40,279 bases of DNA from Dysgonamonadaceae bacterium (lineage in GTDB: Bacteria; Bacteroidota; Bacteroidia; Bacteroidales; Azobacteroidaceae), in NCBI GenBank assembly GCA_031269685.1, contig JAISYU010000124.1, forward strand, positions 1 through 40,279, read 5' to 3'. Position 1 is the first letter of the stretch; every line of letters starts with the position of its first letter. The position numbers and the translations under genes were made by a program. This document shows positions 12,464-40,279 of this stretch, one piece after another. The notes below the pieces were generated by a model. It was not told where the DNA came from. It did no database searches and worked only from the letters and a program-made list of their open reading frames with translations.

Positions 12464-13056
12464 TCGATATTAATCAGTTTATGTATCTGCAAACTTAGAC
12501 GCCATTGTGGGTTTTGCCTGACAAGTTCGACACAATAGGCAATATTATCCTCTGTACTTTCTACGTTGGTAGCAAGAATATCATTAAAAACCGGACTCAC
12601 AAAATAGTATTTAGCCTTCGGTAAAATACTAATATCCGGCAATCTATCACCAACGCGTACCGGCAAACGGATTTCATCAACTATCGGATTAACTTTCGCT
12701 GCATAACCAACATTCCCTTTCGGACTGACAACCGTATAATCCAACCCTTCGGGCAAAGGATAGTGCCCGTTACTCTCAATCGCCTGACGATAGCCTTTTT
12801 GTTTCAGGAAAGCGGTATCGACAGCCGTCAGTTGCAAGGCAGGTTCGCCGCCTGTCCAAATGAGCCATTGACAGGGGTAATTACTTATCGCCGCCTCAAT
12901 ATCGGACAATTCCATCTTCGTTCCGCCTGAAAAATCAGTATCACAGAAATCACATTTCAGGTTACATCCGGCAAGACGAATAAAAATCGACGCCTCGCCC
13001 TGTCTTTCTCCTTCACCTTGCAAAGAGTAAAATATTTCTTTGACATTAAGGCTCAT
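12460..13056 (-). CDS. queE: 7-carboxy-7-deazaguanine synthase
   Basis: This radical-SAM enzyme converts 6-carboxytetrahydropterin to 7-carboxy-7-deazaguanine on the path to preQ0 and queuosine. The cluster motif CNLKCDFC (CxxxCxxC) is preceded by the family signature FYSLQGEGERQGEASIFIRL and followed by WTGGEPALQ for SAM binding. The start is placed at 13056 (MSLNVKEIFYSLQGEGE); the longer reading from 13179 lies inside queD. Length is 198 aa. It overlaps queD by 11 bp and rnz by 4 bp, so it is the middle gene of a tight operon. QueC and QueF are not in this window. Confidence 0.95.
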   Translation of the reverse strand: MSLNVKEIFYSLQGEGERQGEASIFIRLAGCNLKCDFCDTDFSGGTKMELSDIEAAISNYPCQWLIWTGGEPALQLTAVDTAFLKQKGYRQAIESNGHYPLPEGLDYTVVSPKGNVGYAAKVNPIVDEIRLPVRVGDRLPDISILPKAKYYFVSPVFNDILATNVESTEDNIAYCVELVRQNPQWRLSLQIHKLINIE

Positions 13057-13399
13057 ATAAACAGGAAGTTTTTGGTGTTTCGCTAACTTCAACGGCATAC
13101 AGTTCGGGAAAATCCGGTTTAAAGCGCTCATAGATGAACCGCGCAATATTTTCGGAAGTTGGGTTTGCGGGAATAACATCGTTTAGATGGCGATGGTCTA
13201 AAGTTTCGTCTATGAACTTTTTCACGGTATTCAGTTCGTTGTAGTCTTTGACAAATCCGAACCTGTTTAATTCTTTGGATTTAAGATGTATTGTAATTAG
13301 ATAATTATGTCCGTGCATACGTGCGCAAGGGTGGTCTGCTCTCGGCATATTGAGTATGTGAGATGCTGAAAAAGAGAATTGCTTACTGATTTTGTACAT
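13046..13399 (-). CDS. queD: 6-carboxytetrahydropterin synthase
   Basis: This is the T-fold enzyme that makes 6-carboxytetrahydropterin from dihydroneopterin triphosphate, the substrate of QueE. The zinc histidines are visible in FSASHIL and MHGHNY, the catalytic Cys in DHPCARMHGH, and the second active-site block in LDHRHLND. Length (117 aa) is typical. The start at 13399 (MYKISKQFSF) is used rather than the TTG at 13423, because the -7 box occupies 13421-13428. It leads the queD-queE-rnz operon. The untranslated leader is only about 20 nt, too short for a preQ1 riboswitch. Confidence 0.95.
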   Translation of the reverse strand: MYKISKQFSFSASHILNMPRADHPCARMHGHNYLITIHLKSKELNRFGFVKDYNELNTVKKFIDETLDHRHLNDVIPANPTSENIARFIYERFKPDFPELYAVEVSETPKTSCLYEP

Positions 13400-13420: not shown

Positions 13421-13452
13421 CAAAATTAGAAAAAAAAACTACAATGAACAAA
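13421..13452 (-). promoter_or_regulatory. Bacteroidota promoter for queD-queE-rnz
   Basis: On the minus strand TTTG (13449-13452) and TAatTTTG (13421-13428) are separated by 20 bp. This fixes the queD start at 13399. Confidence 0.75.
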
Positions 13453-13484
13453 CAACGGCTATACGCTTAAGGATTATACATCAC

Positions 13485-13788
13485 GTACGGATGTCCGTAC
13501 AAAATATACGGATGTCCGTACAAAACGTACGGATGTCCGTACAAAACGTACGGATGTCCGTACAAAACGTACGGATGTCCGTACAAAACGTACGGGTGTC
13601 CGTACAAAACGTACGGATGTCCGTACAAAACGTACGGGTGTCCGTACAAAATATACGGGTGTCCGTACAAAATATACGGGTGTCCGTACAAAACGTACGG
13701 GTGTCCGTACAAAACGTACGGATGTCCGTACAAAATATACGGGTGTCCGTACAAAACGTACGGGTGTCCGTACAAAACGTACGGGTGT
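13485..13788 (+). repeat. Hairpin-forming 21-bp tandem repeat array (14 full units)
   Basis: Fourteen units start every 21 bp from 13485 to 13758, and a fragment starts at 13779. Each unit is a 16-bp inverted repeat (GTACGGATGTCCGTAC: 7-bp arms, 2-nt centre) plus a 5-bp A-rich linker (AAAAC or AAAAT). Variation is limited to A/G in the left arm (GGA or GGG) and CG/TA at the linker-arm edge. Both strands are open in several frames only because 21 is a multiple of three and units lack stops. There are no spacers, so this is not CRISPR. It lies between the divergent queD and yigZ promoters. Confidence 0.95.
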
Positions 13789-13872: not shown

Positions 13873-13903
13873 TTGCAATAATTAGGGTTTTAATGTAATT
13901 TTG
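13873..13903 (+). promoter_or_regulatory. Bacteroidota promoter for yigZ
   Basis: TTG at 13873-13875 and TAatTTTG at 13896-13903 are separated by 20 bp. The ATG at 13935 follows 31 bp later. Confidence 0.75.
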
Positions 13904-13934: not shown

Positions 13935-14543
13935 ATGGATGACTGTTACAGGACAGTTTCGGACGTTTCGGAAGGGACATTTACCGAACAGCGCAGTAAG
14001 TTTTTGGCGTTCGCGATACCGGTTGACACTCCCGCGAAGGCTCTGGAAGCAGTAGACTGTCTCCGAAAACGGTACCATGATGCACGGCATGTATGCTGGG
14101 CGTATGTAATTGGCGCCGGAAGTACGGCTTTTCGCGCAAATGATGACGGCGAACCCTCATCTACTGCCGGGATGCCGATACTTGGGGTTATTAATTCCGC
14201 AAGCCTTACGGATATAATTATTATTGTGGTGCGCTATTTCGGAGGCGTCAAGCTCGGCACCGGCGGATTAATCTCGGCTTACCGGAACGCCGCCAAAGCC
14301 GCCCTCGAAAAGGCGGAAATCATCATCAAGACAGTGGAAGAGAATCTTGACGTTTCCTGCAAGTTTGAGTTCCTAAACAGCGTAATGAAGATTATAAAAG
14401 AGGAAAATCTTGCCGTGCCGGAAAAGTCAATCAGTGATGTTTGCCTGATCCGCGTAAGGATCCGCAAAAGCAAGGTACAGATGCTGACCGACAGGTTACG
14501 GAACATTGAAAGTGTGCTCGTTATTCCTGCCGCCGACAAGTAG
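13935..14543 (+). CDS. yigZ: YigZ/IMPACT family protein
   Basis: This is a 202-aa member of the YigZ/IMPACT family. The N-terminal UPF0029 domain carries the family signature (EQRSKFLAFAIPV; ARHVCWAYVIG; NDDGEPSSTAGMPIL; VVRYFGGVKLGTGGLISAYR), and the C-terminal DUF1949-like alpha/beta domain follows from about residue 135. The eukaryotic relative IMPACT regulates GCN2; the bacterial role is not settled. The gene has its own promoter. Its last 48 bp overlap the 3' end of the convergent DUF2851 gene, an unusually long tail-to-tail coding overlap. Confidence 0.92.
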   Translation: MDDCYRTVSDVSEGTFTEQRSKFLAFAIPVDTPAKALEAVDCLRKRYHDARHVCWAYVIGAGSTAFRANDDGEPSSTAGMPILGVINSASLTDIIIIVVRYFGGVKLGTGGLISAYRNAAKAALEKAEIIIKTVEENLDVSCKFEFLNSVMKIIKEENLAVPEKSISDVCLIRVRIRKSKVQMLTDRLRNIESVLVIPAADK

Positions 14544-23795: not shown

Positions 23796-23872
23796 TTTAA
23801 GAACTTTAAAGACGTTAAGGACATTAAGGACTTTAAAGTCTTTAAGGGCTTTATTCTTTTAATTTTGCCCGA
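23796..23872 (-). repeat. 9-bp repeat run, inverted copy
   Basis: About six 9-bp units of the CTTTAAAGN / CCTTAATGT type, read best on the minus strand. On that strand a CAAAAT (23862-23867) is followed 20 nt later by CCTTAAAGAC, exactly the spacing of the other composite copies, but the C-rich junction is lost. Units contain the palindromes CTTTAAAG and GACTTTAAAGTC. Confidence 0.7.
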
Positions 23873-31776: not shown

Positions 31777-31881
31777 CAAAATTACATGACAGTATTACAA
31801 AATTACACTGCCAAGTGGCACAATTACGCCGATAACCGGCAAAATTATACGACAGTGTCACAAAATTACACTGCCCCCCTC
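31777..31881 (+). repeat. Degenerate 21-bp units before 9-mers, copy B
   Basis: Five units start at 31777, 31798, 31819, 31840 and 31861, each with a CAAAATTA-like core (one CACAATTA). The last unit runs through CAAAATTACACTGCC into a C-rich junction. Confidence 0.85.
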
Positions 31882-31985
31882 CTTAAAGACCTTAAAATCC
31901 TTAAAGACTTTAATGTCCTTAAAGTCCTTAAAGCCTTTAAAGTCCTTAATCTCTTTAACGCCTTTAAAGCCCTTAATGACTTTTC
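31882..31985 (+). repeat. 9-bp repeat run, copy B
   Basis: About eleven degenerate 9-bp units such as CTTAAAGAC, CTTTAATGT, CCTTAAAGT and CTTTAAAGC. The CCTTAAAG that opens the run is 20 nt after the CAAAAT of the preceding 21-mer. Confidence 0.85.
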
Positions 31986-32070: not shown

Positions 32071-32115
32071 CTTAAAGACCTTAAAGCCTTTAAAGCCCTT
32101 AATGTCTTTAAAAGA
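32071..32115 (+). repeat. 9-bp repeat run, copy C
   Basis: About five 9-bp units (CTTAAAGAC, CTTAAAGCC, TTTAAAGCC, CTTAATGTC) end in TTTAAAAGAAATTACCC, which resembles the endings of the other 9-mer runs. Two further 21-mer remnants follow at 32133 and 32154. Confidence 0.8.
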
Positions 32116-32238
32116 AATTACCCGACAGTGTCACAAATTTACGCCGAAACCGGCAAACTTTCTCTGTCACGGGGAATGACTTACAACCTCAATCTTCGCC
32201 TTTACATTGCCTGGATGCGGTCACTCGCTGTCACTCGG

Positions 32239-32469
32239 CAAACTTACACTGTTAACTGGCAAACTTACGCTGTTAACTCGCAAACTTACGCTGTTAACTG
32301 GCAAACTTACACTGTTAACTGGCAAACTTACGCTGTTAACTGGCAAACTTACGCTGTTAACTCGCAAACTTACGCTGTTAACTCGCAAACTTACGCTGTT
32401 AACTCACAAACTTACGCTGTTAACTCGCAAACTTACGCTGTTAACTCGCAAACTTACGCTGTTAACTCG
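32239..32469 (+). repeat. 21-bp tandem array, eleven units (CAAACTTACGCTGTTAAC type)
   Basis: Eleven units in perfect register from 32239 to 32469. Each is CAAACTTAC(G/A)CTGTTAAC plus TSG or TCA, with almost no variation, so expansion is recent. The GTTAAC palindrome recurs in every unit. Confidence 0.97.
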
Positions 32470-32608
32470 CAAATTTAGACCGACGACTCGCAAACTTAGA
32501 CCGACGATGAGCAAACTTAGAGCGACGACTAGCAAACTTAGAGCGACAACTAGCAAACTTAGAGCGACGATGAGCAAACTTAGAGCGACAACTCGCAAAC
32601 TTAGACCG
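32470..32608 (+). repeat. 21-bp tandem array, second unit type (CAAACTTAGAGCGAC)
   Basis: Six full units and a fragment continue the register of the preceding array without a break, but the second half of the unit changes to AGAGCGACRACTMG or AGACCGACGATGAG. TTAG puts a stop in the frame that was open upstream. Confidence 0.95.
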
Positions 32609-40132: not shown

Positions 40133-40279
40133 ATGAAAGAAATGATTACATATTGTCCCATAAAAAGGATGCCGAATACGGAAAAGTACTTTACGATGTC
40201 AGGCATTGTCAGTTCTAAATCAGAGCATGATTTGGATATGTCAAATATTTTGTTAACACACACACACACACACACACAC
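40133..40279 (+). CDS. Truncated ORF running off the window, unknown
   Basis: About 49 codons (begins MKEMITYCPIKRMPNTEKYF) follow a good promoter and run into an AC microsatellite, which would encode alternating Thr and His. No family is recognised and there is no signal peptide. It could be the start of a real protein or a short leader. Confidence 0.35.
   Translation, partial: MKEMITYCPIKRMPNTEKYFTMSGIVSSKSEHDLDMSNILLTHTHTHTH
40256..40279 (+). repeat. (AC)12 dinucleotide microsatellite at window end
   Basis: Twelve AC units run to the end of the window. In frame with the ORF they code for Thr-His repeats. It may be a phase-variable tract, or an assembly end. Confidence 0.9.

Follow-up and report, generated by a model that had tools for sequence, protein, structure and literature searches.

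The window, by which we mean the whole 40,279-nucleotide stretch of Dysgonamonadaceae bacterium DNA that was analysed, carries a 21-bp tandem array at positions 13485-13788, consisting of 14 full units and a broken fifteenth. The array lies between a queD-like gene (13046-13399, minus strand; PTPS, PF01242, E 2.8e-32), whose start is 86 bp to its left, and a yigZ-like gene (13935-14543, plus strand; UPF0029, PF01205, E 1.1e-35), whose start is 147 bp to its right. TRF called it at 13483-13788 with a period of 21, 14.6 copies, 94% matches and a score of 507, and the units run head-to-tail. Read on the plus strand, the full units (13485-13778) each consist of a dyad, GTACGG(A/G)TGTCCGTAC, and an AAAAC or AAAAT linker; the unit-by-unit read-out breaks down after 10 bases of the truncated fifteenth unit (13779-13788), which forms the edge of the array. 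The array is real, and far exceeds what chance would give. A tandem dyad array with these two linkers and a period of two helical turns, placed between two divergent promoters, was what the preliminary description had reported, and TRF and the unit read-out agreed with it. The same description had every unit containing GTACGGATGTCCGTAC and counted fourteen identical dyad sites; in fact, this exact 16-mer occurs six times in the window, in 6 of the 14 units, and the sites are near-identical, with GGG for GGA in seven units and/or ATAC for GTAC in four. Linkers were AAAAC ten times and AAAAT four times, and every T-ending linker was followed by an A-starting unit (T|A at 4 and C|G at 9 of 13 junctions).

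Promoter-like sites were named by the Bacteroidales promoter consensus. One, TTTG-N20-TAATTTTG on the minus strand (13421-13452), faces queD, and the other, TTG-N20-TAATTTTG on the plus strand (13873-13903), faces yigZ, both pointing away from the array. Because each gene is faced by such a site, the array is upstream of both queD and yigZ and outside both expected transcripts. Furthermore, among the 27 relatives that matched yigZ, none had the array at this gene, and queD was not adjacent to it. The window array probably does little for queD or yigZ. A synteny breakpoint was considered and rejected, since relatives keep no neighbour of yigZ or cysS, with the exception of G019, where yigZ is beside cysS.

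The dyad was earlier described as a palindrome with 7-bp arms, and as a dyad this stands; a hairpin with 7-bp arms would not form, since the arms are separated by just 2 nt, leaving 6 bp and a 4-nt loop. The GGA-to-GGG change, which had been taken as an arm change that preserves G-U pairing, falls in this would-be loop. Likewise, the best RNA fold was not a chain of hairpins (-109.0), as had been proposed, but unit-with-unit pairing (-155.6). In the 52 units of the five arrays that share the GTACGG unit (see below), the arm changes were one-sided transitions with zero compensatory pairs, although the unit pattern behind this comparison itself excluded transversions at four arm columns. On the plus strand, A.C mismatches occurred at pair 7-10 in 10 of the 52 units and at pair 1-16 in 9. 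At pattern-free columns 15 of 16 alleles were transitions, a bias above that of other arrays; it is no proof of pairing, because the loop shows it too. With promoter-like sites that fire away from the array and arms without compensatory pairs, the RNA-level constraint suggested for the window array is unsupported.

The GTACGG unit and other 21-bp arrays

Among 38 genus genomes, the GTACGG unit was confined to five arrays, three of them in the window's genome (G000; 2.23 Mb, 125 contigs, 93% complete) on contigs C118 (the window array), C80 and C96, and two in the relative G008 on contigs C6 and C152. Zero solo copies were found, and the other 36 genomes had none. The consensus unit of the C80 array equals that of the window array in 21 of 21 letters, and those of the G008 arrays equal the window array's in 19 of 21. 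The flanks of the five arrays are unrelated apart from (AC)n tracts; on one side of some other arrays there is a common, dispersed leader/(AC)n element. A MITE of the BrickBuilt kind, with shared leader and tail and terminal inverted repeats, was rejected for the GTACGG arrays, whose flanks have only the (AC)n tracts in common.

Neighbours of the five arrays were queD/yigZ, GH116/UvrB, EF-G/amine oxidase and, for C80 and C152, a gene of an unannotated protein family of about 220 aa that we call DFLP after its N-terminal motif. The C80 array is followed by the start of a DFLP gene that continues on contig C124, and in G008 the DFLP gene behind the C152 array is 57% identical to the C80/C124 one. 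These two arrays stand in opposite orientation to their DFLP genes (sense linker GTTTT in C80 vs AAAAC in C152), and thus fit a sense-specific RNA role poorly. Given that the unit recurs at four other loci with unrelated neighbours, neither a centromere nor an operator specific to queD/yigZ, both raised in the preliminary description, found support; what holds of its DNA-level reading is the dyads, the 21-bp period and a palindromic tendency of the class across the phylum. A plasmid or phage origin, with iterons or a centromere, was also rejected, as the array had no match in plasmids or phages; its two-unit pattern was absent from viral contigs, and an Rfam search with the array gave no match. 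The window array has the consensus unit of the C80/C124 DFLP array with no DFLP gene behind it. Specifically, it is an orphan because the sole DFLP copy on its contig (24303-24890, plus strand; profile positions 46-220, E 2e-36) is without the usual N-terminus, lies 10 kb away and has no period-21 array before it.

TRF on 518 kb of G000 yielded 29 arrays of period 21, along with periods of 23 (seven arrays), 42 (five), 41 (four) and 63 (three). Two of the other 21-bp calls are in the window, at 4-119 (GCAAAATATAACTCGTACCGT, cut by the contig end) and at 32226-32608 (CGCTGTTAACTCGCAAACTTA and relatives, one array or more). When stretches picked for arrays were left aside, 22 period-21 arrays remained in 463 kb, or about 106 per genome. 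We found 10 in 141 kb of G008, an isolate of a kind that comes from termite guts, and 5 in 154 kb of G050; elsewhere there was a single one in 359 kb from 19 further genomes of the genus, and none in 170 kb from 14 genomes of the order. G000, G008 and G050 may form one clade, on a weak tree, and are therefore not independent. Among 69 arrays with periods of 15-50, the period was 21 in 44, 22 in 1, 23 in 9, 41 in 5 and 42 in 7. Units of 21-bp arrays were mostly unrelated to one another, and many arrays had 63-bp higher-order periods. At p<=0.05, 13 of 48 unit families were palindromic vs 3.2-4.2% of random genomic 21-mers; these families take in 23-, 41- and 42-bp units, and for 21-bp units alone the count was 6 of 34. 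We sampled 44 arrays of period 21 in these three genomes, of which 11 were DFLP-linked and 33 were orphans beside unrelated genes. Genomes with at least 10 DFLP genes held 44 such arrays in 813 kb, and 13 sampled genus genomes without a DFLP gene held 1 in about 291 kb.

Loss of mismatch repair was rejected as the cause of the arrays, since mutS1 is intact, and so was loss of SbcD; G000 has no match over the cut-off, yet neither do 30 of the 38 genus genomes. In a wedge model, a period of 21 bends most, but the curvature of the units did not exceed that of shuffles (3 of 34 at p<=0.05). A-tracts occurred in 23 of 34 units vs 17.0 +- 2.6 in non-coding controls, a weak excess.

Other repeats were seen in the same genomes. 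At 40133-40279 of the window, at the contig end, an ORF for a conserved leader peptide (MKEMITYCPIKRMPNTEKYFTMSGIVSSKSEHDLDMSNILL) continues into an (AC)n tract that encodes (TH)n. This leader has many relatives in the G000 stretches that were sampled and several in G008, frequently at contig ends; some of them run in frame into 21-bp arrays, and the leader is possibly phase-variable. Tracts of (AC)n with 19-33 copies, which are unusual for bacteria and several of which are at contig ends, occur at L046 5170-5227, L051 11829-11894, L053 1-66, L058 19773-19811, L063 366-425, L089 22-65, L099 58-111 and L103 15934-15978. The window also has 9-bp tandem repeats (TTTAAGGAC/CCTTAAAGC) at 23796-23853, 31880-31976 and 32072-32112, with akin repeats in other genus genomes. 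A dispersed family of 23-bp arrays (GCATACATTGTCGTTGTATGCCA and rotations) occupies L059 16614-16770, L089 11179-11304, L090 14451-14596 and L093 9218-9333 of G000; 23- and 41-nt minisatellites are likewise described for P. gingivalis in excerpts of PMC4596501. Arrays of 69, 108 and 114 bp in G000 sit inside long ORFs, with protein repeats of 108 bp in L051, L050, L048 and L092 and of 69 bp in L094 and L095.

Arrays upstream of DFLP genes

DFLP had zero matches in NCBIfam (one member scanned), scattered weak matches of which none was credible in Pfam and PADLOC (21 members), and no match among PDB sequences; a plasmid or phage origin was rejected for the protein too, and a profile search of viral contigs found no relative. 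A structure model of low confidence (pLDDT 46) suggests a helical front and a beta-rich end. With a single query, DFLP copies at E<=0.001 numbered 25 in G000, 10 in G008 and 22 in G050. A 21-member profile matched in further genomes, namely 13 of 35 in the genus, 13 of 294 in the order and 4 of 295 in a phylum sample.

We then counted arrays around non-redundant DFLP genes whose N-terminus is intact and whose upstream DNA extends for 330 bp or more, others being dropped before counting; the genes had been picked mostly by protein similarity alone. An array with a period of 21 or a multiple of it (periods of 20 and 22 were also allowed, and did not occur) was present within 700 bp upstream of 61 of the 70 testable genes. 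Linked genes were 18/20 in G000, 5/5 in G008, 11/13 in G050 and 12/13 in other genus members. The two distant families gave 7/7 in G308 and 8/10 in G213 (together 15/17); G225 and G320 gave 0/1 each. A downstream array was seen at 1 of 70 genes, 18 of which had less than 500 bp downstream. As for the nine misses, the array of L238 is just past the limit, the gene of L090 breaks off after 26 residues, and the other seven are plain misses. In several families of the phylum, most DFLP genes thus have an array close in front of them. The best array at the 61 loci had a period of 21 in 54, 42 in five, 105 in one and 126 in one (L200, which also has a 21-bp array); the gap from array to start codon had a median of 82 bp, and copy number ranged from 2.3 to 23.6.

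Units did not follow the proteins. Three protein pairs of 87, 84 and 80% identity had units sharing 10-11 of 21 letters, which is the chance level, and the similarity of linked 21-bp units does not climb with DFLP identity, the exception being the GTACGG unit of C80/C124 and G008 C152. The array format (period 21/42, place and dyad tendency) is kept, and the unit is private to each DFLP gene. Linked units were palindromic at p<=0.05 in 16 of 61 cases (combined p 2e-10), and four-unit RNAs of linked arrays gave better folds than arrays built of shuffled units did (mean z -1.4, n=52). Promoter-like sites toward the DFLP gene were upstream of the array at 20 of the 61 loci and between array and gene at 2, with none found at 39. 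The sense strand of linked arrays had 424 A vs 312 T, and 302 G vs 304 C. Palindromic units, folding, promoter positions and A excess lean towards a transcribed leader with folded repeats. Terminator-like sites were found in 2 of the 61 gaps between array and gene, and shuffles gave 0.6.

Origin of the window array

We consider the window array to be an orphan copy of a class of 21-bp arrays that normally belong to the 5' leaders of DFLP genes, and put the probability of this reading at about 0.6. At a DFLP locus, the array would be transcribed as a leader, given the promoter-like sites upstream of it, and its repeated folded format would act on DFLP expression or activity. Sequence-independent tandem amplification would give rise to new units. 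Copies away from DFLP genes, the window array included, would be by-products or relics, or else serve as sites for action in trans. Of these, a by-product or relic is most likely for the copy at queD-yigZ, because neither promoter reads the array, the arm changes are non-compensatory and yigZ is without the array in 27 relatives.

Since 33 of the 44 sampled arrays are unlinked to DFLP, a general amplification habit could be primary. The window array would then be an inert, plain minisatellite in a genome prone to 21-bp intergenic amplification through slippage or unequal exchange, with the regions upstream of DFLP genes as hot spots. The unrelated units of those 33 arrays, the 19-33-copy (AC)n tracts of G000, the 63-bp higher-order periods in many arrays and the flanks of the five GTACGG arrays, with just (AC)n tracts in common, are in line with this account. 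We nevertheless think it unlikely, as it leaves aside that in distant families of the phylum the arrays accompany one and the same protein family, that the period is sharp (21 in 44 of 69 arrays), that palindromes make up 13 of 48 unit families vs 3-4% of genomic 21-mers, and that most relatives are without such arrays (1 in 359 kb, 19 genomes). A more speculative proposal, which we hold to be doubtful, is that DFLP (perhaps) or another cis process writes arbitrary, often palindromic 21-bp arrays before each DFLP gene. Array and DFLP gene would then form an unrecognised nucleic acid-protein system of the phylum, one that conserves format instead of sequence and in which private paralog tags are replaced far faster than the protein evolves. 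If it were true, orphan arrays would be products of the same writer, explaining why genomes with at least 10 DFLP genes are array-rich and those without are array-poor.

Protein-binding DNA, in which DFLP or another factor binds the dyads, the DFLP arrays being autoregulatory operators and the others targets or decoys, would suit dyads that lie on one face every two turns, a GTACGG unit present at two DFLP genes and three further loci, a linker orientation irrelevant between the two GTACGG DFLP loci, and the position of the window array upstream of both promoters. It is rather improbable, since paralogs of 80-87% identity have wholly different units, which is difficult to reconcile with sequence-specific binding, no DNA-binding domain was found in DFLP, and the GH116/UvrB and EF-G/amine oxidase neighbours share no theme. 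Still less probable is translation of the arrays as heptapeptide repeats (21 bp being 7 codons) in small leader-peptide genes. The arrays of L094, L089, L059, L153 and L065 do lie in one open frame from an ATG with the conserved leader peptide, and sense frames were open in 148 of 177 cases. However, antisense frames were equally open (143 of 177), variable columns had no codon phase (132 observed, 132.7 expected, in a weak test that missed its coding control), the window array is without an in-frame leader or start, and a recognised leader occurs at just 7 of the 61 DFLP loci. The idea that an RNA hairpin chain regulates queD or yigZ, which came with the preliminary description, can hardly be upheld. 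The minus-strand units also resemble a hairpin followed by U4, giving 13 terminator-like sites at 13505-13774 (a short hairpin and TTTT per unit) vs 0.8 expected, and the window array folds strongly against shuffles (z -10); yet both promoter-like sites point away, GTACGG arrays lack compensatory changes, unit-to-unit pairing beats the local hairpins, and the 27 relatives with a yigZ match have neither the array there nor queD as a neighbour.

Relation to known systems

Known type III toxin-antitoxin loci carry a terminator between array and gene. In these systems (ToxIN, CptIN, TenpIN), according to excerpts of PMC4627078, a protein gene is directly preceded by short tandem repeats whose sequence and length vary by locus, the RNAs are 36-nt and 45-nt pseudoknots, and constructs with "repeats and terminator" are named. 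The 61 of 70 DFLP genes with an array immediately upstream resemble them in this respect, and the window array does not. In contrast to these systems as excerpted, DFLP arrays have units of 21 nt instead of 36 or 45 nt. In addition, DFLP matches no ToxN/CptN/TenpN (Kid-like RNase) in NCBIfam, Pfam, PADLOC or PDB sequences, just 2 of the 61 loci have a terminator-like site, near-identical DFLPs go with unrelated repeats, and there are tens of copies per genome. Because the defining protein family was not found and terminator-like sites were rare, we did not assign array and DFLP to type III toxin-antitoxin systems.

Porphyromonas gingivalis has BrickBuilt (23-nt) and MITE464/PgRS (41-nt), described in excerpts of PMC4596501 as intergenic minisatellites of about two and four helical turns with predicted stem-loops and promoter elements within; BrickBuilt has one common 23-nt sequence, leader and tail segments and IS5-like ends. 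Arrays of the DFLP class are similar in size and order to these elements, but differ from BrickBuilt, as far as the excerpts go, in having units that differ at nearly every locus, unrelated flanks where the unit is shared, and a link to a gene family. In Mycoplasma, GAA repeats lie upstream of vlhA genes, a phase-variable family. A repeat tract upstream of each paralog is common to vlhA and DFLP; unlike vlhA, in which one short repeat is common to all members, each DFLP gene has a private 21-bp unit. REP/BIME elements, which go with a RAYT transposase, are dispersed intergenic palindromes as well, although the arrays described here are tandem and of many unrelated sequences. A REP/RAYT origin was rejected, with 0 Y1_Tnp matches in G000, G008 and G050 (17 of the 38 genus genomes have one). 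The literature searched, including excerpts of PMC6344855, PMC3940949 and PMC12654330, contained nothing on 21-bp arrays tied to a gene family. We rate the pairing of array and DFLP as of a kind absent from that literature, and the array alone as another bacterial minisatellite.

If the link between array and DFLP holds, the phylum carries a large unannotated family with a private 21-bp array before nearly every member. Conservation that is free of sequence and bound to format is rare, and would point either to an RNA or DNA partner that is recognised through its shape or to an array-writing process. The same link would explain the odd minisatellites scattered in these genomes, the window array included, and would make the array a direct handle on the DFLP family.
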